Assembly: GCA_944470555.2 (NCBI GenBank)
Contig: OX104129.1
Span: forward strand, 67,387,747 to 67,451,746
Source: Heterobilharzia americana
Taxonomy: Eukaryota; Platyhelminthes; Trematoda; Strigeidida; Schistosomatidae
Direction of reading: 5' to 3'
DNA: 64,000 nucleotides
The translations under genes were made by a program, and so were the position numbers. Shown piece after piece: positions 1,600 through 62,025 of the stretch (position 1 is the first letter of the stretch; every line of letters begins with the position of its first letter). A model generated the notes under the pieces. The model was given only the letters and a program-made list of their open reading frames with translations, was not told the origin of the DNA and did no database searches.

Positions 1600-1935
1600 A
1601 ATCTGTTAACTAAGCGAGTGCATAAGTACATTGATTGGTCAATGAAAGGTTGTTGTCTACTCCTATTTGCTGATCGAATTCTACCGATCATTTTGTAATG
1701 CGGCCAGCAGACTAGGCAGCTCAGCATCACGATGCTCTTTGATAGATTTTAGTTGAATAAATGCAGTCGGCAGGAAGCTCTCGACCTAAGGTTCGTGTCT
1801 GTTGGCACTCGCCAGCAAGGCTTATCTGCAACCCCAACGTAAGTGATGTCCCGTCCGGGACTCGAACCCTCGTCACCGAGTGTTTTAGTCAGCAACGATA
1901 CCATTGAACCATTCGGGGTGGGACTGGTCTTCCAT
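1600..1935 (-). repeat. F3 tRNA-derived SINE with hammerhead-like core
   Basis: Read on the minus strand: a tRNA-like head ending near 1935 (A box around 1893-1915, B box GGGTTCGAGTCC near 1856-1868), a ribozyme-like core at 1779-1820, then a tail with CCGACTGCATTTATTC and TTGGTCAATCAATG. It is the left half of a head-to-head pair with 2020-2256. Confidence 0.75.
1779..1820 (-). ncRNA. Hammerhead-like motif of F3 SINE
   Basis: Minus-strand core reads CTGGCGA, stem II GTG...CAC, then GAAC in place of GAAAC, and the self-complementary CCTTAGGTC that occupies stem III and the cleavage site. The A-to-G change in the core and the damaged GAAA make cleavage unlikely in this copy. The GTG/CAC pairing supports a real stem II in the family ancestor. 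Confidence 0.5.
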
Positions 1936-2019
1936 AGAAAGGGAGCCGCCTAGTCTGCTAGCCCATTGCGAGATAGTCGATTGGATCCCGTCAGCACATA
2001 GGGTTACACAACATGAAGT

Positions 2020-2256
2020 TAGTTAACCTCCGGTGACCAATCAATGGATCTAATCCAGTCCTATAAGAGGTCAATTGCAGCCCGAATAGCTCAGTGGTAG
2101 CGTCACTGACTACAACTCTGGTTGACATGGGTTCAAATCTCAGGCAAGATATCACTTCCGTTAGGGTTACAGATACGCTTTGCTGATGAATACCAATAGG
2201 CCCGAAACCTAAGTCAAGCAGGGCTTTCTGCCGATTGCTCTCAACCAATTAACATC
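2020..2256 (+). repeat. F3 tRNA-derived SINE, right half of inverted pair
   Basis: Starts with the F3 tail segment (GGTGACCAATCAATGG), passes directly into the tRNA-like head (GCCCGAATAGCTCAGTGG at about 2079, B box GGGTTCAAATCTC near 2130), then a core at about 2192-2215 (CTGATGA ... GAAACCTAAGTC). The stem II strands are mutated. Tail-then-head order indicates a template of more than one unit or a circular template. Confidence 0.75.
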
Positions 2257-3059
2257 TAAAAAGTGTATATATTTGATGTTTGAGTCATCTTCCAGAGGAT
2301 ATCAGATAAGTTCTTATACTATATCATGGTGTTTCAACAGCTAAACAGAAATGGATGAAATCCATAAATTTATGGTATTATGCTTAAATTCTTATGCTTT
2401 CTATATTCAACTTCATAAAAAGAAGAGTGTATACGACTATTTCTGATAGCAAGAACAAAAACCTCGAATTCAACATTGATGATAATGAACTCAGTGTATG
2501 TAGTTAAATGAGAATATTAGATCCTAAGAAAAAACCAATAGTGATTAATTTCTCTATACTAATTGAAAACTAATCTACAAATCGATTGAATTTTTTAACG
2601 GAAAAACATTAGAAATGACCCATTTTAGTAAGTAACTATGTTTAAATGTATCCAGTTCAAATGTGGGTAGACACAAAATACTCATATACACTAGTATAGA
2701 TCTCCGTATGTAGAATATTAGTCAATAGATTATTATATCCCAGTCTCCGATACCTTTAATCCATTAAGATATGTAATAATACCAATAACTGTAACATGCA
2801 GAGTAATGTGAGTGTAAAAGGGAATTCAAATAACTCCCAAAGGAATTTTATACTAATTTATTCTAATAGAACTTTACAAGATGAAATGAGAATACACAAT
2901 TCAATTCCATATTATAATTGCGTTTGATAATTATCGCTGTTATCAATGCACGTTTGTGGCTGAAAAATAATGAAGCTTAGGATAAATTTAACGGTGAAAA
3001 ATGAAATACCAACTTGAAATTAATAAATTCCCACAAACCTTTAAATTTAATTACTCCAA
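2257..3059. other. Intergenic, nothing recognised
   Basis: About 800 bases of AT-rich sequence without a recognisable gene, repeat or RNA motif. Confidence 0.5.
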
Positions 3060-3445
3060 TGATGAGTGGCAACCAGCTTCCAGAGGTGATTTGTGAAGTC
3101 CCAGGGAAAAGTCGTTAACGCTAGGGTTAACCAAGTTGAACATGAGGACCGTTATTCAGTGACAATATTGGATGGAAGTTGCGTAATGTCGTGAAATGAC
3201 AAGAGTAGGAAATATCGATCAATAGATGCTGACCCACTGGCTCAACAGTAAAGCGCAGGATGGGAAACCTGAAGGTCCTGGGTTCGATCCCTGCTCAGGT
3301 GGTGGTTGCGCACTATTGAGAAGTCCCACAGTAGAAAGGAACAGCTGTGCAGTGCTTCCGCGTTTCCAATGTCCCTTCAACTAATCTCAGTCCATGATGA
3401 ATACCTACCTGAGATCAATAAATCGTCACAAACCTTCAAACTGAA
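3060..3445 (+). repeat. F2 tRNA-derived SINE, nearly full length
   Basis: Contains the F2 leader (ATGAGTGGCAACCAGCTTCC), the conserved ATTGGATGGAAGTTGCG block, a tRNA-like head (CCCACTGGCTCAACAGTAAAG at about 3233; B box GGTTCGATCCC near 3282) and the F2 tail (CAGTCCATGATGAATACC). The hammerhead at 3309-3355 is degraded: TTGAGAA for CTGAGGA, damaged stem II and GGAAC for GAAAC. At about 385 bp this is among the longest F2 copies here. Confidence 0.75.
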
Positions 3446-4139
3446 ATAATGGGAAATATTTGCAGGTATGGAGTAGGCTGATGTTGGTTTCATGTCCTCT
3501 GAGCTTTGATATTTTGTTGTGGCCATTTCGTTATCAATCTTGGTGACATCTTCAGTACTAACTACTCCACCGAAAATCAATTCGGTCAACTAAAACACTC
3601 AGAAGACTATGTTTTCGACTGATTACTTGTAGAAATGCGCATACTTTACAGACAGTACTGATGTTGTACTCTACCTAACCAATCTATCTGGGTTGTAAAA
3701 AGAAGTGAGATCATATCCAAGGACAAGCTAAGTAAACTGTCTACTTCTATGAGTAAACACTTTGTATTTATGTTGTAAGATCGGTATTTGCCCTATCCGA
3801 GGATATTTTGTCATAATGGGGGAGGTAGCTTTCAACGTTTATGACTAGATGTCAGTTAAATAGCTTTTTTAAATCTAAGGCCTCACAAAGTGTGTTCTAT
3901 CCAAACGCATCTTCGAACACTACCCCGAATAGCTGTCTAAAGGACAGGGTAAAGCCGTCAATAGATCAACTCTTGAGCATTTGGTTACCTCTGCTCATTG
4001 CACTCTACAAGAGTCTTCCTTCAAAGTTATTTATGAAGTAAAATCAAACATTTCGAGGTGAGTACGTATTCACCACCTGAACGTAGTAGAAGCTCTATCA
4101 GTCCAGTAATAAAAGCCTGCTCTTAGATTTGTTTAATTA
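3446..4139. other. Intergenic, nothing recognised
   Basis: No recognisable coding or repeat signal. A 66-codon ORF at 3841-4041 lacks motifs and is probably chance. Confidence 0.45.
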
Positions 4140-5895: not shown

Positions 5896-5944
5896 TTAAT
5901 TTCAAACCCGCTGTGACTTACACAAATACAATCTATATCTAATG

Positions 5945-6206
5945 TTATTTATTGATATACTTGTAATTCTATTTTGTCCCATTGGACAGAATTATTCGAC
6001 CTCTGTTAGCATATGGGTTCCTGTGCGGATACCTCGGTATTGCCTGAATGTCACTTATGGTAATTTAGTTGGTTGTGGCTAGCAGAGGGATCCAGAACGC
6101 GCGTCTCGTCCTGTTTGGGACTTGTCAGATGGATGTACCCGTACCCCAGTGAGTAATGTTGTTCCCACCGAGACTCAAACCCCGTACCCACTGCTTCAAA
6201 CGCACT
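5945..6206 (-). repeat. F1 hammerhead SINE, left half of inverted pair
   Basis: Minus-strand order is tRNA-like head (right end), ribozyme at about 6089-6138, then tail to about 5945 (GCATCCGCACAGG-type block at 6025-6045). The ribozyme has GAGAC instead of GAAAC and CTGACAA for CTGANGA. It abuts the plus copy at 6207 head to head. Confidence 0.75.
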
Positions 6207-6290
6207 GGCTGGCGAGTCCCAAATGGGATGAAACGCGCGTCCTGGACTTCTCTGCTAGCCACAACCAACTAAATTAGTACAATGGTGCTT
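6207..6290 (+). repeat. F1 hammerhead SINE, truncated right half
   Basis: Begins inside the ribozyme: CTGGCGA, GTCC...GGAT, GAAACGCGCGTC, CCTGGACTTC (6208-6250), then the GCTAGCCACAACC tail. The core has A-to-G in CUGANGA. Its start exactly at the ribozyme suggests truncation or cleavage at that point before joining to the minus copy. Confidence 0.75.
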
Positions 6291-8204: not shown

Positions 8205-8445
8205 TTTCATATGATACCGTCGCTGATTGGACCGAATTGATCGGTCCCTATTGGCATATTGTCTCCTGTGCGGATGCCACGATATTGCCAGCGTTTTATT
8301 TATGTTAATGAAGGATCGTGGCTAGCAGTGGAATCCAGGAGGCATATTTCGTCCTATTTGGGACTCGCCAACTGGATGTACCTGCTTCCATGTGAGTGAT
8401 GTTGTTCCCAGCAGGATTCTGACTCTAGAGCGATCGCTCCAATTA
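8205..8445 (-). repeat. F1 hammerhead SINE, left half of inverted pair
   Basis: Minus-strand tail (8205-8310), ribozyme at 8333-8379 (TTGGCGA instead of CTGANGA; stem II GTCC/GGAC and stem I ATCCAG/CTGGAT intact) and part of the tRNA-like head to about 8445. Head-to-head with 8452-8695. Confidence 0.8.
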
Positions 8446-8451
8446 ACGACG

Positions 8452-8695
8452 GTATGATTTAAAAACAATTATACTAAGAAAACTATACCCATCGCACAAG
8501 AAGTGGCTATCGTGGCTTGGCGGTGTTTTTGGATAACGCCCCGGAGCTTGAAGCGATTGCTTCTGAGTCCGAATCCTGGTGGGAACAACATCACTCTCTG
8601 GGATGCAGGTACATCCAGCTGACGAGTCCTAAATAGGACGAAATGCGCGTCCTGGATTCCACTGCTAGCCAAGATCCATCATTAACATAAATATG
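8452..8695 (+). repeat. F1 hammerhead SINE, right half of inverted pair
   Basis: Starts with the conserved ACTATACCCATCGCACAAG leader, then a tRNA-like head with degenerate A box (GGCGGTGTTTTTGGATAACG) and B box region (GTCCGAATCC near 8566), followed by the ribozyme and GCTAGCC tail. Confidence 0.8.
8612..8659 (+). ncRNA. Hammerhead ribozyme, core intact (F1)
   Basis: All core elements are present: stem I ATCCAG paired with CTGGAT, CTGACGA, stem II GTCC/GGAC around a 6-nt loop, GAAA, a short stem III strand TGCGCG and cleavage triplet GTC. This is the schistosome Sm-alpha type I hammerhead, which self-cleaves RNA. It is one of the best candidates for activity in the window. Confidence 0.85.
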
Positions 8696-12544: not shown

Positions 12545-12700
12545 TCATCTAATTAATGAACTAATGATGGGTAGTGGCTATCAGTGAAATCGAGGATGCG
12601 CATTTCGTCCTGTTTTGGACTCGTCAGCTGGATGTACCTGCTACCTAGTAAGTGATGTTGTTCTCACCGAGATTTCACCTCAGGACTGGTATAATACAAG
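12545..12700 (-). repeat. F1 hammerhead SINE, left half of inverted pair
   Basis: Minus-strand ribozyme at 12,588-12,634 flanked by the GTGGCTATCAGTG tail and a truncated head. Heads face the plus copy that follows. Confidence 0.75.
12588..12634 (-). ncRNA. Hammerhead ribozyme, core intact (F1)
   Basis: Minus strand: stem I ATCCAG against CTCGAT (one mismatch), CTGACGA, stem II GTCC/GGAC, GAAA, TGCGCATC with triplet ATC, an allowed cleavage triplet. Confidence 0.8.
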
Positions 12701-13022
12701 CAACAACACTAAAACTATACCCGTCGCTCAGAAGTGGCTATCATGGCTCGGTGGTCTAGTGAAAAACGCTCTGGCGTTTGAAGCAGTGTCATGAGTTCGA
12801 ATCCCAGTGGGAACAACGTTACCCACTGGAGGGCAGGTAAATCCAGCTGATGAGTTCCAAATAGGACGAAATGAGCATCCTGGATTTCGCTGGTAGCCAC
12901 TATCCATCATTATTACAATTAGAACACAGGTAATATCGAGGCATTCACACTAGAGCCCACATGCCAATATAGACCGACCAGTTAGATCTAATCAGCGATG
13001 GTATAATACACGCAATAACACT
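12701..13022 (+). repeat. F1 hammerhead SINE, full unit of about 320 bp
   Basis: Complete monomer: leader ACTATACCCGTCGC, tRNA-like head (GGCTCGGTGGTCTAGTG; B box GAGTTCGAATCCC near 12,792), ribozyme at 12,841-12,886, GGTAGCCACTATCC, and the tail with TAATATCGAGGCATTC and ATACACGCAATAACAC. The latter matches the text preceding heads elsewhere. Confidence 0.85.
12841..12886 (+). ncRNA. Hammerhead ribozyme, core intact (F1)
   Basis: ATCCAG/CTGGAT stem I, CTGATGA, stem II GTTC/GGAC with a G-U pair, GAAA, TGAGCATC. All invariant core bases are present, so this is a candidate active ribozyme. Confidence 0.85.
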
Positions 13023-13034
13023 ACATGTTATTAA

Positions 13035-13245
13035 TTGTTTATACTTATGCATCTCTTGCTTGAGTGACCCAGTGGATATCACCTTGGTGTCTGAAGTGAT
13101 CGGTAGTGGGCTTGAGTCTCAGCAAGAACACCATCACTCGCTGGGAGGTATATGTATCCCAAACGGGGAAGAAACGCGCGTCTTGGAATCCACTGTTAGC
13201 TAGTACCAAGTGTATTATATTTATCGCATGTTCGATGCTGTCCAT
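13035..13245 (+). repeat. F1 SINE, second unit in tandem, ribozyme deleted
   Basis: Follows the previous unit directly in the same orientation. The head is recognisable (GTGACCCAGTGGATATCACC) but the ribozyme core is collapsed at about 13,156-13,187; GAAACGCGCGTC remains without CTGANGA. Confidence 0.7.
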
Positions 13246-14239: not shown

Positions 14240-14345
14240 TGAATGTTGAACGAAGGTGAAATGAAAGTTAGGATGGCGACTGTATCCGGACCATCGACCA
14301 CCAGGTTTCTGGCCTGATGCTCTACCAATTGAGCTACATGGACCT
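14240..14345 (-). repeat. F4 tRNA-like SINE, left half of palindromic pair
   Basis: The minus strand carries a very tRNA-like head: TAGCTCAATTGGTAGAGCA (D arm and A box), CAGG...CCTG (anticodon-stem-like) and GGTCGATGG (B-box side), then the tail TTTCATTTCACCTTCG. No hammerhead is visible. The near-consensus D arm makes it the most tRNA-like sequence in the window. It is still judged SINE-derived because of its tail and inverted partner. Confidence 0.65.
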
Positions 14346-15504: not shown

Positions 15505-15625
15505 ATTTTGGTGAAATCATGGATGTGCGATTTATTCTACTTGAGACTTGTCAGCTGCATCCACATGTAACCCAGTGAGTGGCCTTATTCACATTAAGTC
15601 TTAAACTCAACACTTATCGATTCAT
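15505..15625 (-). repeat. F1 SINE, left half of inverted pair, degraded
   Basis: Decayed minus-strand ribozyme at 15,519-15,565 (CTGACAA, stem II partly kept) and a short piece of head. Confidence 0.6.
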
Positions 15626-15734
15626 ATGCCAAGGTGTTACAGACTAGGCCACTGGGGCGCGACAGACACCTCCTGCGCAGCGGGGTATCATTTTTTTATT
15701 TTTCGAATCCTTTAATATCCCGTTGCTATACAGA

Positions 15735-15905
15735 GTCAAAATGCCCGACCACTGTTGATAGATAGGCTCTTATGCGGATGTCTGATTCAGGCTTTAGTAG
15801 GAACAACATCACTGACTGGGGTGCAAATAAATTCAGCTGGTGAGTCACAAATAGGATGAAACGCACATCATGGATTCTACTGCGTCATCAAGATGAATAT
15901 GACAT
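15735..15905 (+). repeat. F1 SINE, right half of inverted pair
   Basis: Truncated head, then a ribozyme at 15,832-15,877 with CTGGTGA (A to G in the core), stem II GTCA/GGAT and GAAACGCACATC. Probably inactive. Confidence 0.65.
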
Positions 15906-16165
15906 CATCCATCATATCCACGTATAACAAAGTGAAATTACAGCCATCAAAATATAATATAGTTATAATTTAGGAAAACCAGCAACTTCATGATGTATTT
16001 ATTCCTTTATTCACAGACATTAGTGGCTAAAGAATTAGACTTCTAGAACCTCATCTATGACCACAGGCTGATTGTCATTACATTTAAAGATCATTGAGAA
16101 GAGCTGGAAATAACAGAACTTTGCGGAATTAAAGCCCAACATCACTGTTCTCCTTTAACATAATT

Positions 16166-17590
16166 ATTATTTGTCCCTTGGGTTCATAGTAAAACATACC
16201 GATTCACTAACACATCACCATCTCACTCCATTCTCTACAGTCTTTTCAACCTGAATCCACAACTGCCTACATGCTCCCATTTCTGCATCACATCATCTCC
16301 CCCATGTCAACCTCGACTCCAACGCCCAACTCGTCACCTCCCAGCGGGTTCCACTCGATGAACTGGCCTCACCTGGCCTGACGCGTGATCTCCCCAAACC
16401 ATCTTATCAGTCTATGCCCAATCCAATCCAATCAATCTCCATCCACTCTCTTCTGCATATTTGTTGGGCAACAGCTTCTCGGTTGGTTCGTTGCAAGCCA
16501 GAGTTCGTTGTGGCTTATTCTGATTATTCTGGCCATCTCATCTTTCTCATCTTCAGTATGGAGCGAGCAGGAGTGGCAGCCGATGACGATGTATGTTTGT
16601 AGTTTGTTGGAGATGTCTTCCGTAACGTGCCAAGTCTCTCAACCATTATATAGAAACACTGACTGACTTGACTGACATTAGTGTTGAAAATCTGGATCTT
16701 GCTCACATTTTATGCTGAGTGGAGTGGGGAGGAGTGGAGTGTAATGGAGTGTGGTGGTGTGCAGTGAAATGCACTGAAGTGAAGTGAAGTAGATCTCCAC
16801 ACCGATTTCAGATTGATGAAGGGCTGTCTTGCTGTCTTTCCTACTGTGGCTTTGACATCCCCATCTGTGCCGTCGCCATCTGTGGTTGAGAGGATACTGT
16901 CTAGGCAGAGAGATAGGTGAAAGAGACAACTTCCTCTAGATTTCTCCCGTTGATGGTAGATGGTGCTTGTTGTTGGTTGGTTGGTTGGTTGGGTATCTTC
17001 ATCACCTCTGTCTTCTCTACGTTCACCTGAATGAAGTCCTATCTTCCTTCGCTGCCTCACAACACCTTTTCTACCAACTTGTTAGTTTTCGCCTATACAT
17101 CTTCGAGCTTGTGCGACATATGACATTAGACATGTCATCATCATTGGCGAAATCAAAACCTTCTTCTAGAGTCTTTTCATCAGGCCAACCAGCATTTGCC
17201 TGTCTTCTCACTCCTCACAGTTGTCTGTTGCATGATCCAGTTCAGTCGACCACAATCAGGAGGATGATTTGTGATGCTAGTAGGCGGCAACCTTGTCTTA
17301 CTCCTTCCTGTCTTCACTTCATTTCAAAGACATCGTCGTCACTGAGCTTTCCATTGTGAATCACTTGACATCTAGCATCCTCATATAGCATAGCATATAA
17401 CTGTTGAATGAGGCTGGCAAAGGTTTATGGCACTAAAATCGTAATGTTGAAGCAGCTCCCTGTGATATTACTTTTCTGTCGACGCTATCGAAAGTTTTTT
17501 CAAAGTGGATGAAGTTGAGGTCGAGGGTTGATTGCCATTCTAAGCCTTAGCTTACTTCATTTTGGCACTTATTAGTAGGATGTTTTTGTA
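16166..17590 (-). pseudogene. LINE 3' half (RT to 3' end), left inverted copy
   Basis: Minus-strand LINE remnant of the same family as 31.8-34.4 kb. From right to left: RT text near 17,450-17,550 (FIDF-like), motif B GVRQGC near 17,290-17,310, a damaged motif C (DFANDD near 17,140-17,160), then LTSW, the KTEVMKIP-like stretch, a GDGTDGDVKA block, and the 3' end GGACAAATAATAATTA at 16,160-16,180. Several frame changes occur. Bases 16,166-17,367 are repeated almost identically, inverted, at 19,058-20,258; this copy extends about 220 bp further toward its 5' end. Known role of the family: target-primed retrotransposition. This copy is dead. Confidence 0.7.
16722..16792. repeat. GTGGA/GTGAA-rich simple repeat inside LINE
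   Basis: Imperfect pentamer-like repeats (GTGGA, GTGTA, GTGAA) occupy the place of coding text found in the related LINE at about 32,340. The mirror copy is at about 19,632-19,702. Confidence 0.7.
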
Positions 17591-19057: not shown

Positions 19058-20258
19058 CAAGTGATTCACAATGGAAAGCTCAGTGACAACGATGTCTTTG
19101 AAATGAAGTGAAGACAGGAAGGAGTAAGACAAGGTTGCCGCCTACTAGCATCACAAATCATCCTCCTGATTGTGGTCGACTGAACTGGATCATGCAACAG
19201 ACAACTGTGAGGAGTGAGAAGACAGGCAAATGCTGGTTGGCCTGATGAAAAGACTCTAGAAGAAGGTTTTGATTTCGCCAATGATGATGACATGTCTAAT
19301 GTCATATGTCGCACAAGCTCGAAGATGTATAGGCGAAAACTAACAAGTTGGTAGAAAAGGTGTTGTGAGGCAGCGAAGGAAGATAGGACTTCATTCAGGT
19401 GAACGTAGAGAAGACAGAGGTGATGAAGATACCCAACCAACCAACCAACCAACAACAAGCACCATCTACCATCAACGGGAGAAATCTAGAGGAAGTTGTC
19501 TCTTTCACCTATCTCTCTGCCTAGACAGTATCCTCTCAACCACAGATGGCGACGGCACAGATGGGGTGTCAAAGCCACAGTAGGAAAGACAGCAAGACAG
19601 CCCTTCATCAATCTGAAATCGGTGTGGAGATCTACTTCACTTCACTTCAGTGCATTTCACTGCACACCACCACACTCCATTACACTCCACTCCTCCCCAC
19701 TCCACTCAGCATAAAATGTGAGCAAGATCCAGATTTTCAACACTAATGTCAGTCAAGTCAGTCAGTGTTTCTATATAATGGTTGAGAGACTTGGCACGTT
19801 ACGGAAGACATCTCCAACAAACTACAAACATACATCGTCATCGGCTGCCACTCCTGCTCGCTCCATACTGAAGATGAGAAAGATGAGATGGCCAGAATAA
19901 TCAGAATAAGCCACAACGAACTCTGGCTTGCAACGAACCAACCGAGAAGCTGTTGCCCAACAAATATGCAGAAGAGAGTGGATGGAGATTGATTGGATTG
20001 GATTGGGCATAGACTGATAAGATGGTTTGGGGAGATCACGCGTCAGGCCAGGTGAGGCCAGTTCATCGAGTGGAACCCGCTGGGAGGTGACGAGTTGGGC
20101 GTTGGAGTCGAGGTTGACATGGGGGAGATGATGTGATGCAGAAATGGGAGCATGTAGGCAGTTGTGGATTCAGGTTGAAAAGACTGTAGAGAATGGAGTG
20201 AGATGGTGATGTGTTAGTGAATCGGTATGTTTTACTATGAACCCAAGGGACAAATAAT
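19058..20258 (+). pseudogene. LINE 3' half, right inverted copy
   Basis: Almost exact inverted copy of 16,166-17,367. I found one substitution (at about 19,092) and one single-base difference: this copy lacks one base in the run near 19,566, which shifts the frame. It begins abruptly at CAAGTGATTCACAATGG and ends with the same 3' tail (GGGACAAATAAT). It contains the RT motif B GVRQGC region, the damaged FANDD region and the C-terminal portion in broken frames. Either a second, 5'-truncated insertion from a nearly identical source or an inverted duplication of the left copy. Confidence 0.7.
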
Positions 20259-31165: not shown

Positions 31166-31265
31166 CGTGGCACGATAGCTCATATGCTAATGGAGGTCGA
31201 GCAGTTCGATCCACTGTAACAGTGATGAATTTCATGCACATCCACAAATAGTAACAACTAATATC

Positions 31266-31458: not shown

Positions 31459-31505
<47 letters not shown>

Positions 31506-34875: not shown

Positions 34876-35024
34876 TGAGTGTAACATCTTGTTCTTGTCC
34901 TCGTGTATGGTAATCATAATAAAATGGCTATAAACAAATGCTGACAACTAAGTACTATTGAAGTTTTTAAAAGCGAGAGAAATTACCACATAGGTACTGA
35001 TGAAACTAATTCAGTTTGGGGTTT

Positions 35025-43699: not shown

Positions 43700-43885
43700 A
43701 TACTACCTAATAGGTTACGAGATCATCTCAGAACCTGTAGGTTCTGCGTTCGATCCCTGTTAGGACCATGAGTGTGCACTGCTGAGGAGTCCCATACTAG
43801 GACGAAACTTTTGACCAGTGCTCCCAGGTTTCCAGCGTTCCTCCAACTGATGTCATCCCATGAAGAATACCAACTTGAAAAAAAG
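43700..43885 (+). repeat. F2 SINE, 5' truncated
   Basis: Starts within the head (B box TGCGTTCGATCCCTG, 43,745-43,759), ribozyme 43,776-43,821, tail CAACTGATGTCATCCC and AATACCAACTTG. Confidence 0.8.
43776..43821 (+). ncRNA. Hammerhead-type ribozyme (F2), core intact
   Basis: GCACTG/CAGTGC stem I (perfect, 6 bp), CTGAGGA, stem II GTCC/GGAC around CATACTA, GAAAC. The stem III strand is mutated (TTTTGAC) and the triplet reads GAC, so cleavage is doubtful. The core and two stems match the hammerhead consensus well. Confidence 0.8.
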
Positions 43886-44049
43886 AGTAATTCGACGAAA
43901 TATTTTCGGTAGTCGAAAATTTAAGCAGGCCGCCGACTTTTTGTTTTAGTAGAATATAGTGAACTGGAAATCGAAAGATGCACAAAAGGTAACAAGCCAA
44001 TATTCCGTAGGAAAAAATATCAGGACATAGACTGATATGATTCATTTTG

Positions 44050-44190
44050 AAGTTCTGTAGGGATTCATTGATTTCAGGGTAGCAGTCATCATAGACGGAT
44101 ATCGACTGCAGAACCAATGAGACCCCTGCAAACACGGAACAGATGTTTTGTCTTAGTATGGAACTCCTCAGTAGTAGACATCAACTACCG
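44050..44190 (-). repeat. F2 SINE, left half of inverted pair
   Basis: Minus strand: ribozyme near 44,138-44,178 (CTGAGGA, GTTC...AAGA, CAAAACATC) and tail to 44,050. Confidence 0.65.
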
Positions 44191-44199
44191 CAATGGGAT

Positions 44200-44530
44200 T
44201 TACTGACATGGTTTCAGACGGATCTCTTGAAGTCCTAGTTAAGAAGTTGTGACCTGTTCAGTCAATCAAGTCGCACATCAGGACAAACACTCGCCGATGA
44301 TACTGGATGATGTTCACACTATAAAGCGAATTAACTGAAGTTCGAAGAACGTGAACCACTGAATTTTGACTAATCGTCTGGATGTCAACATGCTTGTCAT
44401 AGAATCTTAAAGTGCTGGGTTCGACCTCTAGAGAATTCGTCCTTCTGAACTACCTAGGAGTCCTATTCTAAAAAGAGGGTTACCAATGGTTCGTCAACTG
44501 ATATCAGTCCACGATGAATAGTGACTTCAA
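44200..44530 (+). repeat. F2 SINE, right half of inverted pair, degraded
   Basis: Leader with GAAGTCCTAGTTAAGAAG, block CCGATGATACTGGATG, B box CTGGGTTCGACCTC (44,416-44,429), remnants of the ribozyme (GGAGTCCTATTCTA) and tail CTGATATCAGTCCACG. Confidence 0.65.
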
Positions 44531-44759
44531 ATAAGGTGTTTAGTTTTCTAGTTTCCTAGCTTCTTCTTTTCAGAAACAAACAGTTCTATACTCTTCGTTA
44601 TTTTATGTTTGCATATACCTCTTGCGTAATATTGATTCTCTAACTTCTGTATTACATGATTTTATTGTTCGATTCATAGTTCATTGCGTGTTGTTAACAA
44701 CAAGCTTTGGTATATTTTATATCTTTAATCTACTAACTAGCGGTTCCATACACACAGAT

Positions 44760-46858: not shown

Positions 46859-47149
46859 TCTAATGTACGTTATGGGGATAGCGGTACAGTTATAGGGCCA
46901 AGTCACGAAAAGAACTCTCTTTTCATTGATTAGGCTTTACATGAGTCGCACTTGTTCAGTTCACTATCCTAACCATATCATCTGTTCATACAAGAAAATA
47001 CGATACTAACAGAATGAACAGAAAAGCAATCTTCAAGGACAAAAGTTATTGAGGATGATGAGTATAACAGCCACAGTCATGATTAACAAATCGCCATCCT
47101 TGGTTGTTTTTAAGTAAAAATGTCTTTTTGAGGTGAATATGGATTTTTA

Positions 47150-47258
47150 ATTTAGAGGTAGTATTCATCATGGATTGATATCAGTTGGGGAACCACTAAG
47201 AATCTCGGAGCACTAGACAGCTGTGTCATCCTAGTATGGGACTCCTCAGGAATACGCA
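47150..47258 (-). repeat. F2 SINE, left half of inverted pair
   Basis: Minus strand: CTGAGGA, GTCC, CATACTA, GGAT, then GACA for GAAA, CAGCTGTC (47,210-47,257), and tail ATCAATCCATGATGAATAC. It begins at the ribozyme, with the head missing. Confidence 0.75.
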
Positions 47259-47269
47259 CCCACCACAGA

Positions 47270-47470
47270 AGTTAGAAACTGTGAACCACTGGAAATCGAC
47301 TCATTGGCTGAATGGTTAACGCGTTCACCGTGAAACCTGAAGGTCCTGAGTTCGACCCCTAGCCGGGTCGTGGGTGCGTACTACTAGGGAGTTCTATACC
47401 AGGACGAAACAGCTCTCAGTGGTTCCCCAACTGATGTCAGTCCATGATGAATACTACCTCTAAAAGTGTC
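47270..47470 (+). repeat. F2 SINE, right half of inverted pair
   Basis: Head CGACTCATTGGCTGAATGG (47,309-47,327), B box CTGAGTTCGACCCC, ribozyme 47,377-47,422 (CTAGGGA, GTTC...CAGGAC, GAAACAGCTCTC), tail CTGATGTCAGTCCATG. Confidence 0.75.
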
Positions 47471-48790: not shown

Positions 48791-48944
48791 GTCTCAGTTA
48801 AAAATATAATCAAAATATTTTAAAAAAATCTTTACATACTTTATTTGATCAACATGAAAGAAAATTATTCGTTTGAAAGAAAGACAACATTACATTCAAC
48901 TAATGCACTTGAAGTATTTGGAATGTATTCGTTTCTAAGAGAGT

Positions 48945-49180
48945 TTTTATCATGAAATCCCATTAACTGGAGAACCAATGAAAACCTTGAAGTTATGGGC
49001 AGCTGTTTCGCCCTAATATAGGACTCCTCAGTAGTGCACAACCTCGATCTTACGAGAAAATGATCCCAAGACCGTCACAAATGATAGCCAGCAATTTACC
49101 ATCCAGCCACTGAGTCGGAATACAAGGCTGCACATTTACCTGCTTCTATCAGTTCGTAATATAACGTAATAACTAAACTG
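48945..49180 (-). repeat. F2 SINE, left half of inverted pair
   Basis: Minus strand: head CCGACTCAGTGGCTGGATGG (49,097-49,118), ribozyme 48,997-49,038, shortened tail. Confidence 0.7.
48997..49038 (-). ncRNA. Hammerhead-type ribozyme (F2), core intact, stem I lost
   Basis: Minus strand: TGCACTA, CTGAGGA, stem II GTCC/GGGC (one G-U), GAAAC, AGCTGCC. The triplet is GCC rather than GTC and the 3' strand of stem I is mutated. Confidence 0.65.
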
Positions 49181-49279
49181 TGAACTAGAAGGTCCACAAG
49201 GTCAGGTGTAAAGAAAAGTACTCTCTAATAGCATCGGACGTTGGTCGGACTATTTCGCGATTGGGTAGAAGTAAGAGAC

Positions 49280-49425
49280 TGTAGACTATTCGATTCCAAC
49301 TCAGTGGCCAAGTAGTATCATGCTCATCATAAGACCTGATAATACTAGGCTCAATTCCACATGAGGTTATAGTTGTGCACATAAGATAAAATGGATGTCC
49401 AGGGCTTTCAGGCATTGATTGGTCA
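49280..49425 (+). repeat. F2 SINE, right half of inverted pair, degraded
   Basis: Head CAACTCAGTGGCCAAGTAG, B box TAGGCTCAATTCC, and a trace of ribozyme (AAGATAAAATGG). Followed directly by an F3 copy. Confidence 0.6.
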
Positions 49426-49675
49426 CGGGAGTGCAACCGATTTCGTGTTGTCCAGTCCTGAGTGTAGACCGGATTCTGTCGATCATATTTGCAATATGGC
49501 AACCAAGCTAGGAAGCTGAGCATCACGGTGAACATTAGTAGATGTTAGTTGGTTGGAGGCAATCGACAGGAAGCTCTGCTCGACCTAGGTTTTGTGCTTT
49601 TTGGCACTCGTCAACAAAACGTATCTGCAACCTCGACAGTAACTGACATCCCACCTGAGATTCGAACCCACTCAG
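49415..49675 (-). repeat. F3 SINE, left half of inverted pair
   Basis: Minus strand: B box GTGGGTTCGAATCTC at the right end, core near 49,580-49,625 (TTGACGA, stem II GTGC/GCAC perfect, AAAACCTAGGTCG), tail TCGATTGCCTCCAACCAAC and TGACCAATCAATGCC. The GTGC/GCAC stem helps define the family structure. Confidence 0.8.
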
Positions 49676-49925
49676 GACTAGACAATATGAAATTGGTTGC
49701 ACTCCCGTGACCAATCAGTACACGTAAGCCAGTCCTGCAGGAGGTCAATCGCAACCCGAACAGCTCAGTGGTAAAGTAGTTGACTACAACACTGGGTGAC
49801 GCGGGTTCGAATCTCAGGTGAAACATTAGTTCCGTCGATGTCGCAGTTACGCCTTGCTGACGAGTGCCGAAAAGGACGAAACCTAGGTTGGGTATGGCTT
49901 CCTGCCGATAGTTTCGAACCAAATA
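49676..49925 (+). repeat. F3 SINE, right half of inverted pair, tail-to-head
   Basis: Opens with tail text (GACTAGACAATATG, TTGCACTCCCGTGACC) and passes through CAGTCCTGCAGGAGGTC into the head (ACCCGAACAGCTCAGTGG, 49,756), B box GCGGGTTCGAATCTC (49,801-49,815) and core 49,851-49,898. Confidence 0.8.
49851..49898 (+). ncRNA. Hammerhead-like motif (F3), best stem II
   Basis: CTGACGA (49,857-49,863), stem II GTGCC/GGAC with one bulge, GAAACCTAGGTT. Stem III is the self-complementary CCTAGG; the triplet is GTT. Stem I can form only with an offset, so activity is uncertain. Confidence 0.55.
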
Positions 49926-50449
49926 ACAGGGCTTTCAGGTTTTCAGTGTTTCTCTGACTAATAAAATCAACCAATCTCTATTAGCCTGTATAATGAATGT
50001 ATGAATTTTGATTTGAAAATGAACTCGTCGAAATTATCAACCGGCAACATGAATCAAAGATGAAAAGTTCAAAAAACTATAAATAAACCATGAATTCACA
50101 TCCAGTCAAGTTTTTTAACCCTTCACACTAAGATTTAGGAATTATTGTGTGAAATATACCCATTCGGATATGAAAGAAGAACAAGTTTTTCAGCAAAGAG
50201 TTTCTTTCAGTGATTTCGTTCTCAAAGCTGTTCAATAGTAAATTTATACATTTTTCTGGTGTAAAGATCTATCAAGCATGGCAACACACAAATAGTGTCA
50301 ATAAATGAGATGTCATTAAAATCAAAAAAATAAAATTACTTGAGAAGTGTGCAGTGTGAAAACAGAAAAATGGAAAGAAAAGTTGGAAGGAGTTAGAGAA
50401 GATTTCAAAGACTAAAAACTAAGACCTTAAGGGAAGAAGGGGCTGAACA
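49926..50449. other. Intergenic with a short PLE end segment
   Basis: 50,170-50,250 (CAGCAAAGAGTTTCTTTC, GTTCTCAAAGCTG) matches the PLE end segment seen at 5.6 and 7.5 kb. Otherwise nothing recognised. Confidence 0.45.
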
Positions 50450-50855: not shown

Positions 50856-50861
50856 ACTATA

Positions 50862-52214: not shown

Positions 52215-52372
52215 ACACCAAATGGTCAAGGAAGAGCAACCAATTTCATGTTGTCTAGTCCTGAGTGCAAACCAAATCCTATTGATCATATTTGCAATGC
52301 GGTCACAAAGATAGGAGGCTCAGCATCGCGGTGCACATTAGTAGATATTAGCTGGTTGGAGGCAATCGGTGA
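52215..52372 (-). repeat. F3 SINE tail, left half of inverted pair
   Basis: Minus strand tail only: GATTGCCTCCAACCAGC, CACCGCGATGCTGAGCC, TAGACAACATGAAATTGG. No head or core. Confidence 0.65.
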
Positions 52373-52640
52373 TGCTGAGCCTCTTAGCTTAGTGACCACA
52401 ATACAAATATAATCAGTAAAATTCGGTCTGCACTCAGGACTGCAGGAGGTCAGTCACGGCATGAATAGCTCAATGATAAAGTTGCTGCCTACAACACTGG
52501 GTGACGGGGTTTCGAATCTCAGGCGGGATACCAGTTCCGTCGAGGTTTCAGATACACCTTGCTGACGAGTGCAAACAAGCCTGAAACGCAGGACGAGCAG
52601 GGCTTTCTGCCGATTGCCTCCAAGTAACTAACATCAAATG
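52365..52640 (+). repeat. F3 SINE, right half of inverted pair, tail-to-head
   Basis: Starts with tail text (TGATGCTGAGCCTCTTAGC, CTGCACTCAGGACTGC), then head GCATGAATAGCTCAATGA, B box GGGTTTCGAATCTC (52,506-52,519), core at about 52,553-52,600 (CTGACGA, GAAACGCAGGACG), tail TGCCGATTGCCTCC. Confidence 0.75.
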
Positions 52641-52870: not shown

Positions 52871-53839
52871 TAAATCACTGAGATTACACTGGCTGGCGAA
52901 ATTTATGGATCAGTCTGATTGGTTTTTAACTTATCAAGTTGTTCAGTAGAATATTTCGAAGTATGAAGTTCACTAAGTTTGGTAATTGCCAACATCTTTA
53001 TTTGGTACATATAAAGTATCAGTCCCATTTCTAAAAGCAGTAAGACTGTACTATATTTGATGCATTTTCAGGATGTCTTTGTTGCCTCTTGCTTTTGCTT
53101 TGCATTTTCAGAAGTTTTCACAGATTTACAGGCGCATAAATATAAACATGGAATAGGCTTTGCCTATTTATTAGTGAAAATTAAAAAGGAAAACACAGTC
53201 TAGAATAGTCTTTACAGTAAGGTTGCTTGAAACTGTCGAAGTTGACGAAAGTACTGTTTCAAATAGTAGCAATCCATGCTGCGTATAAAAAATGTATTTA
53301 GAATTTAAGCTAAACATCGATATGTAACAATGAATGTCAAGGTTCGTACTAAACTAATGGGTAAAAGAAAGTAGCATATTAGATGGGAAATTTTTGTTTC
53401 AAGGAATAGGTTTCAGTTGCGACGAATTTGCTTTCGGAATAGACAGACAAGTAAGAAGTGCAACCTTTAGGGCCTAGGTGATAAAAAAATGTTTTGAAAT
53501 GTATCAAAAGGTGTTGTCAATTACATAGGTTTAATATGATAAAGTTCTGATTCAGATTTGTCCGTTCATATGTGTAATAGAGAAGTATGTAAACATTAAC
53601 ACTGAACACGTAGTACTTACTGTCCAAAAGTTTATGTCTAAGATGTCTAGCCGTGTTCACCACTGCAACAGGCTTTCATGTTAATATAAGGCCCTTAGTC
53701 AACAAATTAGTCTATCATAAGTGTCCAGAAAAAACACCCGAAGTTTGCTGTGGACTACTGGTTGCACAACCATCGAAAGCCACCACAGCTCCTTCTTGTA
53801 GGACGGGAACAGTATAGTGTTTGGTGTTATAACATTTAA
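52871..53839. other. Intergenic, nothing recognised
   Basis: No identifiable gene or repeat. Confidence 0.45.
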
Positions 53840-53841
53840 AC

Positions 53842-53995
53842 GTCCGTCGTTGATTCGACCGAATTGATTGGCTACTACTGACACATGGGATCGTGTGTGG
53901 GTGTTTTAATATTGCCTGTAACTTTCAAATCTGATATTATTGATGGATAGTGGCTAGGAAGAAACGCGCATCCTTGATTCCACTGCCAGCCAAAA
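53842..53995. repeat. F1 SINE, collapsed inverted pair
   Basis: The left part is minus-strand tail (CAATCAATTCGGTCG, TGTCAGTAGTAGCC on the minus strand). It switches at GTGGCTAGG to plus-strand GAAACGCGCATCCTTGATTC and CACTGCCAGCC. Heads and most of both ribozymes are deleted, as expected from excision of a palindrome centre. Confidence 0.6.
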
Positions 53996-54089: not shown

Positions 54090-54505
54090 TTAAAAACCAC
54101 TGACTGGTCACTAGAGTGCAGTCGATTTCATATTATGTAGTCCTGAGGACTGGTCGAATTCTATCAATCCAAGCTTCCCAGTGATTGCCCACAACCAACT
54201 AATAACTATTAAAGGGGACCATCGGGGTCAGCTTCCTACCTTGGTGGCTACATGGCAAAATGGTCGATAGAAGCCGATTAGCACTAAGGATTAGAAACAT
54301 AAATTTGATTGTTGTCCGAATTCAATCACCGCCTCGCTGGTAACATCGCTAACTGCAACACTGATTGACACGGGTACAAATCTCAGGCAGGACACCAGTT
54401 CCATCACGCTTGTAGATATGCCTTACTAACGAGTGACAACCAGCATGAGAATTTAGTTGCTCAGGACTTCCTGCAGATTGCCTCCAACTAACTAACAGTT
54501 TTAAA
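54090..54505. repeat. F3 SINE pair, rearranged
   Basis: 54,090-54,180 is minus-strand F3 tail (CTCAGGACTACATAATATG). 54,300-54,505 is a plus copy with decayed head, B box CGGGTACAAATCTC (54,378-54,391), core near 54,420-54,455 (CTAACGA, GAGAATTTAG) and tail GATTGCCTCCAACTAAC. Confidence 0.6.
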
Positions 54506-55021
54506 ATCATAAACTGATGTAAAAATCAAATTACCATCTGTGCTTTAGTCCTCTCAAAACGTTCTGTAGTTCGATTAAAGATTAGAGAAGAGGACCCTCT
54601 TAAAATACTGGACCATAAATTAAAAAAAGACTTAATGACAAGATGTGAAAATCTTTATTTTGCCAGATAAAACACACTGGACTAGCGGCCAATTCAGGTG
54701 ACTGACTAAAACAAATGAAGACGGCAAATTGTCATTTGAAAAAAGAATTTCAGACAAATTTATCTCTTAATTCAATCATAATGCTGTTTGCATTTCCAAT
54801 TTTAGTTGACAGGATACAGATTTTCTATCATCAGTTATTTTCTTAATATGAAGTAAACCACCTTTTATAATCAATAACTTTTAGAATAATTTACGCTTGA
54901 AAAGATTTTCAAATATTCCACTATTCAGTGAATATTGATTTTTGATGGTTAAAAACACCTGAACAGATTTTCTGCCTACCTAATCAGTTTCCTAGTGTTT
55001 TGAATACTTATTAGGATTATT
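54506..55021. other. Intergenic, nothing recognised
   Basis: No identifiable feature. Confidence 0.45.
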
Positions 55022-55290
55022 TATTTGGTTGTGGGCTAGTAGAGGGATCCGGGAAGCGCGTTTCTTCCTTTTTGGGACTCGTCAGCTATATGTACCTGCA
55101 CCCCCAATGAGCGATGTTCTTCCCACTGACTCGAACCTCATACCCATCGCTTCTGACGCCAAAACGTTATCCTTTAGCCCACTAAGGCACGATAGTCAAT
55201 TCCTATACAACGGGTATTAGTTATCACTATTTATTGATATGCTTGTGGTTCTTCTTTGATTTGCTCGATCGAATTGTTTGACTTCGACTG
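55022..55290 (-). repeat. F1 SINE, left half of inverted pair
   Basis: Minus strand: tail remnant of a second unit (55,230-55,290), leader ACCCGTTGTATAGGAATTG, head with GCTAAAGGATAACG, ribozyme 55,047-55,092 (CTGACGA, GTCC/GGAA, GAAACGCGCTTC; stem I damaged), GCCCACAACCAAATAA end. Confidence 0.75.
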
Positions 55291-55294
55291 GCAA

Positions 55295-55575
55295 ATGGGG
55301 TGTTGTGCCTCGGTGGCCTAGTTGATAACACTTTGACGTTTGAAGTGATTGATATAAGGTTTGAGTTTCGGCAGGAATAACATCATTCATTTGGGTGCAC
55401 CTACATACATTGATCAGTCCCAAATAGGACGAAACGTGCGTCGTGGATTCCTCTGCTAGCAACAACCAAGTAAATTATCATAATAAATATTCAGACAATA
55501 TCGAAGCATCCGCATAGGAGAACATATACCAATCAAGGTCAAAATATCCGGTCCAGTAAAACAGCAGAGAACTAT
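55295..55575 (+). repeat. F1 SINE, right half of inverted pair
   Basis: Head TGCCTCGGTGGCCTAGTTG (A box, 55,303), B-box region AAGGTTTGAGTTTCGG, ribozyme 55,404-55,449 with TTGATCA for CTGANGA but GTCC/GGAC and GAAACGTGCGTC kept, GCTAGCAACAACC, tail GACAATATCGAAGCATCC. Confidence 0.75.
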
Positions 55576-55864
55576 AAGCATATCAACAAATAGATTCGAA
55601 TACTGTTACTCACAAATATGGTATCGAACACATGCGAACAATTAGAAGAAATGCCAACCTGAAAGGCAAATAAACGAACAATTTGTTCAGGACATGATAG
55701 ATTCTTTAACTAAAAATACCTTTTTAAGACGAAATAAAATGTCAAATCACAAACCGAATCAGCCCCTGAAGAGTGTGTTCGTTCTCCGTCATTGAATTCA
55801 TTCAAGGTGGCTGTATTTGTCGTTGACTGAATTAAATTATTTTTTGGGGTAAGATTATTGTGAA

Positions 55865-56120
55865 AGTCTTCATCGGAGACTGATGTGATTTGGAGAATCG
55901 TTGAAAACCTGAAGAAAAACAGTGGACAACTATTTCGTCCAATTATGAGGCTACTGCATAGTGAATACCTGCGAATGTGTGAGGATCAGAATCCACAATC
56001 ATCACGTTTCATAGTAAGCACGTTGCTGTACACCGACTAAGTCAAAATACAATGGTCCACATTTTATAATTTCCGTTGATTTTAGACATAAAGTAACTAC
56101 CATCTGATGACATCGGTAAG
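55865..56120 (-). repeat. F2 SINE, left half of inverted pair, degraded
   Basis: Minus strand: decayed head, remnants of the ribozyme near 55,924-55,970 (GACGAAATAG), tail CACATCAGTCTCCG. Confidence 0.6.
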
Positions 56121-56164
56121 CATTGATCAGGCAACCAGACTTTGTCAACACCATGAATTATAAA

Positions 56165-56345
56165 GAAGAAGACTGCTAGATTCCAAATCAATAGGCTTAC
56201 ACTGGTATCCAGTAGGCCATGACGCTGTCCTTTATGAGATCGTGGTTATGCACTGCTGAGAAGTACCTAAATAAGTCAAAACAGGTATAAAAAGCTTCCA
56301 AGTTTTCTGAATGATTAAGCCGAATAAGTAAATAACTATTTTAAT
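56165..56345 (+). repeat. F2 SINE, right half of inverted pair, degraded
   Basis: Head text ACTGGTATCCAGTAGG, ribozyme remnant near 56,240-56,285 (CTGAGAA, GTACCTAAATAAGTC, AAAACAGG), short tail. Confidence 0.55.
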
Positions 56346-59219: not shown

Positions 59220-59277
59220 TTCAAGTTGTTGTTCATCGTAGACTGACATCGGTTGGAGGAACAAAGGAAATCTGGGG

Positions 59278-59323
59278 GCACTGGATAGCTGTTTCGTTCT
59301 AGAATGGGACTACTCAGCAGTGC
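59278..59323 (-). ncRNA. Hammerhead-type ribozyme (F2)
   Basis: Minus strand: stem I GCACTG/CAGTGC perfect, CTGAGTA (G to T in the invariant GA), stem II GTCC/GAAC, GAAAC, AGCTATC (triplet ATC). Probably weak or inactive because of the core change. Confidence 0.7.
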
Positions 59324-59591
59324 AAACCCACGACCTCACCCTCCAGGGATCGAATCCACGAACTTCAGGTCCCGTGGCCAGCGCTTTATCATTGAACCAC
59401 TGGGTCAGAATCCAGTGCTCCATATTTCCAACTTCTGTTAGCTCACGATATAGTGCAACCGCCACCCAATGTCATCGCTGAGTATCTGTCCTCACGACCA
59501 TCAGGCTTTGCCCCCACCTGTCACGACTTCTCATTGGAACTTCGGGAATAGTTCTCGAAGCTAGTCACCAGTGAGCACCAGTTCAATTGAA

Positions 59592-59796
59592 TTTTGAGGG
59601 AGTTGTGGGGATTTGGAAATATTTCAAGTTGTTATTCATTGTAGACTGACATCAGTTGGAGGAACAAATGAGGAGTCCCATACTAGGATGAAACAGCTGT
59701 CCAGTACTCCTAGGTCTCCTTTGTTCCTCCAACTGATGTCAGTCTACAATGAATAACAACTTGAAATATTTCCAAATCTCCACAACTCCCTCAAAA
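59592..59796. repeat. 77-bp inverted repeat (hairpin) within the F2 insertion
   Basis: Arms 59,592-59,668 and 59,720-59,796 are complementary with one mismatch seen. The loop (59,669-59,719) is the truncated ribozyme region. Confidence 0.85.
59666..59708 (+). ncRNA. Hammerhead-type ribozyme (F2), 5' strand lost
   Basis: TGAGGA, stem II GTCC/GGAT around CATACTA, GAAAC, AGCTGTC, CAGTAC. The first C of CTGAGGA and the 5' strand of stem I are replaced at the inversion joint. It sits in the 51-nt loop of a 77-bp inverted repeat. Confidence 0.65.
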
Positions 59797-60586: not shown

Positions 60587-60588
<2 letters not shown>

Positions 60589-60665: not shown

Positions 60666-60670
<5 letters not shown>

Positions 60671-60689
60671 TTTCTTATTACTTGCATAG

Positions 60690-61231
60690 GTGGTCTGGAA
60701 TTTACCCCACTGCCTTCATTTCTTGCCTAATACTGATAGTAAGAAGCTTAGCATAATTTTGCGTGGATTATGCTTTGAGTGTGATGCAACAGAAGTAAGC
60801 AGTATACAGTCTTCCAAAGGAAATTATAATTTTGATAATTATTATCAACAAGTCAATTTGACCAAGTTCACACACACAGTTTATTTGATCAAGGAGAAAA
60901 ATCTAGAAAAACACATATTACTTTATATAAAAAAAACACAATCAAGTGAAGTATTTAATTACACTTTAGTAACTTATGACAATCAATCTAGAAAAAAATG
61001 TCATAAACAATCACCTACAATGTTGTTGTTCACATTCAATAATCTATACATATGTCAACTTAACTATCATGAACGTATTACATTTAGAAAACAAATTGTT
61101 ATGTTTACTAATTTCATCTATTCATCATTTTCACAGAATTCTTCCATTATTCAAAGTTATAATATTACTGATATAAATATTCAAGATGATACTATGAATC
61201 TAATTTTTGAATCACCTTCAGACTATGAAAA
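60690..61231 (+). CDS. Candidate host exon, possible TMEM181-like protein
   Basis: A good acceptor (TTTGTTTTTCTTATTACTTGCATAG split by the exon border at 60,689/60,690) and a good donor (GAAAA/GTGAGTAAT at 61,231/61,232) bound 542 bp that are open throughout in one frame (about 180 codons, donor phase 2). The protein starts hydrophobic (VVWNLPHCLHFLP) and then becomes polar, with five Cys and several N-glycosylation sites (NLT, NYT, NQS, NSS, NIT), suggesting a luminal or extracellular domain. The LNYHERITFRKQIVMF segment and overall order recall the domain after the first membrane segment of TMEM181/Wntless-type proteins, but this needs a profile search. No retroelement motif is present. A further exon should lie downstream. 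Confidence 0.5.
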
Positions 61232-61489
61232 GTGAGTAATTTATTCTTTTTAGACTATTGACCATGAAACTAATTCATTTTTCAAGTTGAATGTATATCT
61301 TTTATGCATAATTTTATAATAATACTGAAATTCTAAGCAAAATGTCAAGTATAAGAATTAAGCGAACATATACTTCTACACTATCCCAACAAAAAATATC
61401 ACTGAAGACAATAAGATCTTCAAATCATAACAAGGTGTATAGCAACAACTTTTGATAGCAAAATGTACGCCTCAAATATTTTACCTAGA

Positions 61490-61725
61490 GGTTTGTGGAG
61501 ATTGATTAACTGACTTTACGTTGAATATCATCATGAACTGACGTGATTAAAAGAAACATTAGAAACCGAAGAGCGCTCACTATATAGCTTTTCCGTCCTA
61601 GTATAGGACTCCACGGATCGACCCCACGACGTTCAGGTTTCGTGGTCAGGACGTTACCATTTAGCCACTGTATCGGAATCCAATGGTCCATATTTCCAAC
61701 TTCTGCCAAAGTTATTAACAAAGTG
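61490..61725 (-). repeat. F2 SINE, solitary
   Basis: Minus strand: block AACTTTGGCAGAAGTTGG, head CCGATACAGTGGCTAAATGG (61,656-61,677), B box CGTGGGGTCGATCC, ribozyme partly deleted near 61,583-61,615 (GGAGTCCTATACTAGGAC, GGAAAAGC), tail TCAGTTCATGATGATATTC. Confidence 0.7.
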
Positions 61726-61727
61726 TA

Positions 61728-62025
61728 ATTGGTTGTTCACGGGAGAGCAACCAATTTCATGTTGTCTAGTCTCGAGTGTCGGTCAGGAGTAGACAACATG
61801 AACAATCAATACATGTAACACAGTCCTACAGGAGGTCAGTCGCGGCACGAATAGCTCAGCGGTAAAGTTTCTGGCTACAATACTGGGTGACGCGGATTCG
61901 AACGTCAGGCGGGATATTAGTTCTATCAAGGTTTCAGATACACCTTGCTGACGAGTTCCAACAAGCCTGAAACATAGGACGAGGAGGGCTTTCTGCTGAC
62001 TGCCTCCAACTAACATATATTAACT
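61728..62025 (+). repeat. F3 SINE with short inverted piece
   Basis: 61,728-61,785 is minus-strand tail (CTAGACAACATGAAATTGG). From about 61,786 the plus copy begins with its own tail text (AGTAGACAACATGAAC), then head GCACGAATAGCTCAGCGG (61,845), B box GCGGATTCGAACGTC, ribozyme-like core 61,941-61,989, tail CTGACTGCCTCCAACTAAC. Confidence 0.75.
61941..61989 (+). ncRNA. Hammerhead-like motif (F3)
   Basis: CTGACGA, GTTCC AACAA GCCT (weak stem II), GAAAC, then ATAGGAC in the stem III position. The core is intact but the stems are weak. Confidence 0.45.

Follow-up and report, generated by a model that had tools for sequence, protein, structure and literature searches.

Results

Three related SINE families with predicted hammerheads

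We analysed a stretch of 64,000 nucleotides of Heterobilharzia americana (contig OX104129.1, positions 67,387,747 to 67,451,746), hereafter called the window, which contains three families of short interspersed nuclear elements (SINEs), F1, F2 and F3, together with a Penelope-like element. The SINE copies have tRNA-like heads and predicted type I hammerhead ribozymes, and many of them lie in head-to-head pairs, the insertion anatomy of which is shared with the Penelope-like element.

An earlier inspection of the letters alone, to which we refer as the sequence-only reading, had described three families with one plan, i.e. a tRNA-like head, a hammerhead core and a private tail, and had suggested their common descent. 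Iterative profile searches separated the three families, and plan and descent are borne out. The consensus sequences of F1, F2 and F3 have an A box (11/11) and a B box (10/11) with an A-to-B spacing of 43-44, and ARAGORN detected no tRNA gene in the window. The core motif CTGANGA-N4..24-GAAAC occurs 13 times in the window, which compares with an expectation of 0.85 and was not reached in any of 100 shuffles. Pairwise alignments of the consensus sequences, which run from the head through the core, scored 298, 209 and 206, far above the maxima of 112, 114 and 117 obtained with 300 shuffles each. The tails were private only in part, since those of F1 and F3 can be aligned as far as the short 3' end described below. 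Common descent and a shared plan are thus supported at the level of the consensus sequences, and we regard F1, F2 and F3 as related tRNA-headed non-coding retroelements with a predicted type I hammerhead just upstream of the short 3' end.

On the Rfam model of the type I hammerhead (RF00163, cut-off 34 bits) ten matches at or above the cut-off were obtained in the window, every one of them within F1, and the best copy reached 67.3 bits (8613-8657, plus strand). The F2 and F3 examples named in the sequence-only reading remained below the cut-off, with 30.8 bits for the F2 core at 43776-43821 (plus strand, inside the F2 copy 43732-43880) and 29.2 bits for the F3 core at 49851-49895 (plus strand), which represents a subtype with extra letters and an offset stem I. 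Genome copies outside the window did exceed it: F2 copies scored up to 52 and 47.8 bits, and four of nine F3 loci fetched from elsewhere passed, the best being L055 and L062 with 42.7 bits, followed by L056 with 38.4 bits and L059 with 35.6 bits. In L055 and in the minus arm of L062, both with the stem I GCCUUG/CAGGGC, all pairs of the model are formed without any non-standard pair. Because such fully paired copies exist, we rejected the idea that F3 is merely a decayed ribozyme.

Stem I was found to be perfect in the copy consensus of F1 (ATCCAG/CTGGAT) and of F2 (GCACTG/CAGTGC), as had been noticed before in single copies, and the F2 consensus combines it with stem II GTCC/GGAC, GAAA and the triplet GTC. 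F3 had been considered the weakest case on account of its offset stem I. Three extra letters that separate stem I from the cleavage site make up this offset. They were found in 10 of the 11 F3 window cores listed (10 of 15 when all F3 cores listed are counted), but the offset is not general: among the 11 arms of the nine outside loci, five carry the extra letters (L057, L058, L059 and both arms of L063), whereas six do not (L055, L056, L060, L061 and both arms of L062). The extra-letter copy L059 still passes the cut-off; of the arms that lack the extra letters, L060, L061 and the L062 plus arm carry changes and stay below it. The consensus stem III differs among F1, F2 and F3 (ACGCGCGT, ACAGCTGT and ACCTAGGT) and is a palindrome in every family.

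Non-consensus letters are rarer at hammerhead core positions than in the rest of the element, with 0.119 versus 0.222 in F1 (leaving out loci L001-L030, which had been picked by Rfam), 0.154 versus 0.221 in F2 and 0.137 versus 0.202 in F3. The F2 fold, for which alignment A1 comprises all 18 rows of 62 nt among 31 cores, is supported by 79.4% paired cells as compared to 26-46% in slid controls. Covariation in F2 was not above shuffles, as expected for decaying copies. Minimum-energy folds of single F2 and F3 cores contained stem II without forming the full hammerhead, and that of a single F1 core was a different fold. We conclude that all three families carry predicted type I hammerheads and that each of them includes copies scoring at least 34 bits.

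Units and two 3' ends

The unit measures 327 nt in F1, about 337 nt in F3 and about 405-413 nt in F2, where its length was estimated at junctions (the model end, then 22-30 nt, then the model start). Two 3' ends occur in every family: a short one (S) shortly beyond the hammerhead and a long one (L) farther on, the latter falling within the leader of the next unit in F1 and F3. Inserts can exceed one unit: nine F1 cases span 370-435 nt on the 327-nt unit, with overlaps of 47-81 nt, and two further, longer F1 cases were judged dubious. Frequent starts at F1 unit position 58 were not accepted as true 5' ends, as they were judged to reflect an alignment break in an AT-rich stretch.

F1 comprises two tail subfamilies, CACAACCAACCAAATTATC and CACTATCCATCATTA (for example, 8226-8693 versus 5940-6268). 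A plasmid search gave no match. Rfam tRNA matches at 14271-14337 (minus strand), L003:754-826 and L047:7354-7426, with 29.1, 41.6 and 37.5 bits, are possibly further tRNA-headed repeats; the one in L003 precedes an F2 copy by about 60 bp.

Head-to-head pairs

The two 3' ends, the over-length inserts, the pairing of copies head to head and its likeness to Penelope anatomy had been missed by the sequence-only reading, which otherwise stands with respect to plan and descent. The genome searched comprises 664.9 Mb in 337 contigs, 650.4 Mb of which are in eight contigs (C1-C8), and its repeats and type of hammerhead are indicative of a schistosomatid fluke. Arms were mapped in the window and 50 fetched stretches, i.e. 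194 arms in 355 kb. Within a distance of 120 bp, this sample contains 53 head-to-head pairs of the same family and no tail-to-tail pair. One of these, L002, had been read as a tandem of 2.5 units, which we rejected in favour of a pair adjoining an older copy; it was kept as L+S in the pair count with wrong arm limits and omitted from the analyses of identity, duplications and boundary motifs. A sample taken without regard to content, consisting of 20 stretches of 10 kb at even spacing along contig C1, contains 11 pairs among 60 arms; a looser count of the same 200 kb gave 69 copies, or 5.6% of the bases. Second matches beside the best 40 places genome-wide were head to head in 9 of 9 cases for F2 and in 12 of 12 cases for F3, four of the latter resembling one locus on small contigs.

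The F1 pair at 8226-8693 illustrates the arrangement, with a minus arm ending at L (8226-8442) and a plus arm ending at S (8485-8693). Arm mapping placed further F1 pairs at 5940-6268 (L+S), 15511-15883 (typed S+S), 53778-53995 (one end untyped) and 55001-55592 (S+L). The F1 pair at 12550-13209 was typed S+S as well; on its right, either a tandem or two copies may be present. The S+L pair at 31020-31611 is enclosed by an exact 13-nt target-site duplication, AGTAAAATCTTTT. Of the F2 pairs, those at 35008-35640 and 44040-44532 (both L+S) and at 48923-49358 and 55866-56307 (both with one end untyped) come from arm mapping. The F2 pair at 47117-47464 (L+S) has a target-site duplication of 14 nt with one mismatch, and the S+L pair at 59220-59796, the left arm of which was read as more than one unit, has an exact one of 12 nt, AGATCCTAATAA. 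Among the F3 pairs, the one at 49403-49928 (L+S) contains the F3 example mentioned above and is flanked by an exact 13-nt duplication. Duplications with one mismatch enclose the L+S pairs at 52223-52635 (12 nt), 54098-54497 (14 nt) and 61728-62014 (12 nt), and arm mapping added the pairs at 1651-2258 (L+S) and 21261-21540 (S+L).

Pairs as wholes are enclosed by target-site duplications far more often than controls. Direct repeats with a score of at least 11 surround 10 of 51 pairs as compared to a fraction of 0.000 of re-paired flanks, and with a score of at least 8 they surround 18 of 51 pairs (10 F1, 3 F2 and 5 F3) as compared to 4.7%. The outer ends are strongly mixed: the 46 pairs typed at both ends comprise 42 L+S, 4 S+S and no L+L. 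Solo arms scoring above 200 include 36 S, 29 L and 8 untyped ends, so that about half of random pairs would be expected to be mixed (binomial p ~2e-9 for 42 of 46). Of the boundaries on the L side, 9 of 18 read C|A, as do 2 of 17 of those on the S side, against a background of 0.070.

The two arms of a pair are also more alike than arms of different pairs, with identities of 0.801 versus 0.740 in F1 and 0.715 versus 0.656 in F2 (0 of 2000 permutations each) and of 0.758 versus 0.709 in F3 (60 of 2000 permutations). The F1 tail subfamily agrees between the arms in all 16 pairs that could be typed on both arms, out of 20 examined. In the young F2 pair L052, the arms differ at 1 of 140 positions and an exact 14-nt duplication is present. 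Judged by their sequences, many pairs thus behave as single events, apparently copied from one RNA lineage and with one target duplication around the pair, and each pair has the appearance of a single double-primed insertion.

A Penelope-like element and other repeats in the window

A Penelope-like element occupies 62385-64000 on the plus strand and runs past the end of the window (L064). Its left target duplication lies at 62385-62394, and the exact 10-nt duplication TTAGCTATTT surrounds the whole element. The open reading frame (ORF) at 62582-63829 (plus strand) encodes a reverse transcriptase (RT; RVT_1, E 4.6e-11), and we take a part of the element's ORF, recognised by eye, to be of the GIY-YIG type. 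The left arm is an inverted copy of the right arm without the tail, whereas an extra tail of about 47 nt is present on the right arm only.

The SINE pairs have this same Penelope-type insertion anatomy, that is, inverted head-to-head terminal units, a tail on one arm and a short duplication. The SINE units of about 327-413 nt do not have the RT and GIY-YIG ORF of Penelope-like elements, for which they are too short, and they would therefore be passengers of Penelope rather than members. For rotifer Penelope elements, the available parts of the description report inverted pseudo-long terminal repeats, one of which may bear a tail, duplications that measured 8-10 bp in the described cases, partial tandems, and inversions that are mostly head to head (PMC3846280).

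By eye, TCAA is seen near the terminus of the long ends of F1, F2, F3 and the Penelope-like element, which could be a shared recognition site. A long interspersed nuclear element (LINE) is located at 27144-30526. It contains an RT ORF (RVT_1, E 4.5e-35), together with an endonuclease-like ORF that falls slightly short of the Pfam cut-off; in its relatives the end lies near 30716, in sequence resembling TGATAATGATGATG. Finally, two arms of about 1.2 kb (16165-17367 and 19058-20259), 1.69 kb apart, form an inverted repeat that matches perfectly. Its LINE-like sequence is present again in many fetched loci, and the repeat could reflect a recent duplication or an assembly effect.

Discussion

The reading that we favour, and that we consider probable, is that the hammerhead SINEs are moved by Penelope-type machinery through double-primed insertion of L+S pairs. 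The machinery would most likely be of the Penelope type because the Penelope-like element in the same window shares the anatomy, down to the extra tail that only one arm carries. In such a scenario, an endonuclease/reverse transcriptase would nick the target, preferring C|A on the L side, and first-strand synthesis would be primed at the L site. The other target end would then prime at the S site, and the two cDNAs would join head to head. As for the template, the hammerhead might cut tandem transcripts into units, perhaps yielding circles with exactly one L and one S site. A circle of this kind would fit both the L+S pairs and the inserts that exceed one unit, whereas a linear RNA ending at L would likewise give mostly L+S. 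The fuller proposition, i.e. that the SINEs parasitise Penelope-like elements and not LINEs, that the hammerhead releases unit-length, possibly circular RNA, and that the L+S mirror pairs are scars of the retrotransposition of circular RNA, is more tentative, and we would put it clearly below an even chance.

Several observations speak against Penelope-type double priming or limit what can be drawn from the pairs. In the Penelope-like element of the window, the L-side boundary is A|T and not C|A (one case), and the Rfam scan found no hammerhead in it. The start points of the arms are not piled up at the hammerhead cleavage site, with only 1 of 45 paired L arms starting within 2 nt of it; we therefore see no genomic sign that the copied RNA had been cut, and start points were rejected as a footprint of cleavage. 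The duplication signal of solo copies is weak (a score of at least 8 in 9 of 66, control 4.3%). Four S+S pairs exist, 7 of 53 pairs were not typable, and part of the data was already known when the end classes and C|A motif were defined. With a limit of 350 bp, the 200-kb sample of C1 contains 2 tail-to-tail and 7 tandem same-family neighbours next to 13 head-to-head ones. Shared age accounts for part of the raised identity within pairs, and L052 stands out as the clearest case rather than a typical one, since the arms of the other four fetched pairs (L051, L053, L062 and L063; 88-94% alike) are little or no closer than those of different pairs (87-92.5%). Moreover, the head-to-head repeats of rotifer Penelope were attributed, in the text available to us, to self-priming on an antisense template and not to double priming (PMC3846280).

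This last mechanism, in which the first cDNA folds back and copies itself, was suggested for Penelope on the basis of palindromes that lie at the inverted junction (PMC3846280, in the part available). For the SINE pairs we hold it to be quite improbable. Simple fold-back predicts nearly equal unit start positions of the two arms, but their inner starts lie at most 10 nt apart in only 1 of 53 pairs, and the outer ends differ, one being L and the other S. The fixed position of the second arm's outer end at S also bears on whether the families could be ordinary tRNA SINEs that depend on LINEs, whose linear RNA, with its end at L, would undergo classical twin priming and whose hammerhead would be incidental. 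Twin priming of L1 does yield inversions with target duplications, at human rates given as 18.4% in the germline and 21.9% in somatic cells; the germline rate for Alu, however, is 0.02% in the same source (PMC12016303, in its available part), as compared to 11 pairs among 60 arms in the C1 sample. Overlap of the arms at the junction, seen in 20 of 52 pairs, and the LINE-type RT ORFs of the window would both suit twin priming, but the single LINE 3' end compared (near 30716) is by eye unlike L or S. On balance, we regard dependence on LINEs as rather unlikely.

A further possibility is that two separate RNAs of one source, perhaps joined via their self-complementary stem III, were copied from both target ends. 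Both arms often hold the same stretch (140 nt in L052), which one molecule would have to supply twice, and the three consensus stem III sequences are palindromic; by itself, however, this explanation does not account for L+S rather than L+L or S+S, and we give it a small chance. Large inverted repeats with short target duplications could also suggest that what moves is the palindromic pair as such, for instance as a fold-back element or one resembling a miniature inverted-repeat transposable element. As inner breakpoints and arm lengths vary widely between pairs and solo copies are many, we rejected the palindrome as a single transposing unit and consider this very improbable.

Which retrotransposon moves hammerhead retrozymes and SINEs is an unsettled question. 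According to the accessible text of a 2020 review, the metazoan repeats show no conserved motif that reveals their mover, and Penelope-like elements are put forward there as candidates for moving retrozymes, given that hammerheads occur in both (PMC7761336). For Penelope, the insertion anatomy provides an argument that is independent of the shared hammerheads. Being distinctive, countable and shared with Penelope-like elements, it offers a direct test in any genome assembly; the paired anatomy ties the ribozyme to the integration route and accounts for the many SINEs found in mirror pairs. In titles and abstracts of the open-licence literature we found no description of paired insertion of hammerhead SINEs, and the paired two-ended insertion shared with Penelope-like elements appears to be undescribed for them in the literature searched.

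Comparison with known systems

The original accounts of the schistosome hammerhead SINEs Sm-alpha and Sj-alpha are reportedly those of Ferbeyre in 1998 and Laha in 2000. As cited in the available parts of PMC2770079 and PMC8490949, these elements resemble F1, F2 and F3 in their tRNA-derived head, type I hammerhead and very high copy number. The earlier assignment of F1 to the Sm-alpha type is supported by its near identity to the RF00163 consensus and by these papers, with Sm-alpha itself compared by description only. Since the families are mutually related and F1 is of the Sm-alpha type, they are not a new kind of element. F2 and F3 depart from Sm-alpha and Sj-alpha as described there in the sequences of stems I and III and in their leaders and tails, and the accounts, as far as available, do not mention two 3' ends or head-to-head paired insertion. 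In Schistosoma mansoni, W-elements provide hammerheads of SINE-like elements beyond Sm-alpha (W25.2, W26.2 and W27.2), and three of five candidates, variants of W25.2 and W36.2, cleaved in vitro (PMC8490949, in part); F2 and F3, which we likened to them by description only, may or may not be identical with W-elements.

Metazoan non-LTR (long terminal repeat) retrozymes, according to the available text of PMC7229834 and PMC7761336, have a type I hammerhead like F1, F2 and F3, are likewise built of units a few hundred bp long, and also show inserts exceeding one unit and target duplications of more than 4 bp, but they are said to be promoterless, whereas our families have A and B boxes. Rotifer Penelope elements, as described in the accessible part of PMC3846280, resemble the SINE pairs in their head-to-head inverted terminal units, the optional tail on one side, partial tandems and target duplications; unlike Penelope, the SINEs have no ORF.

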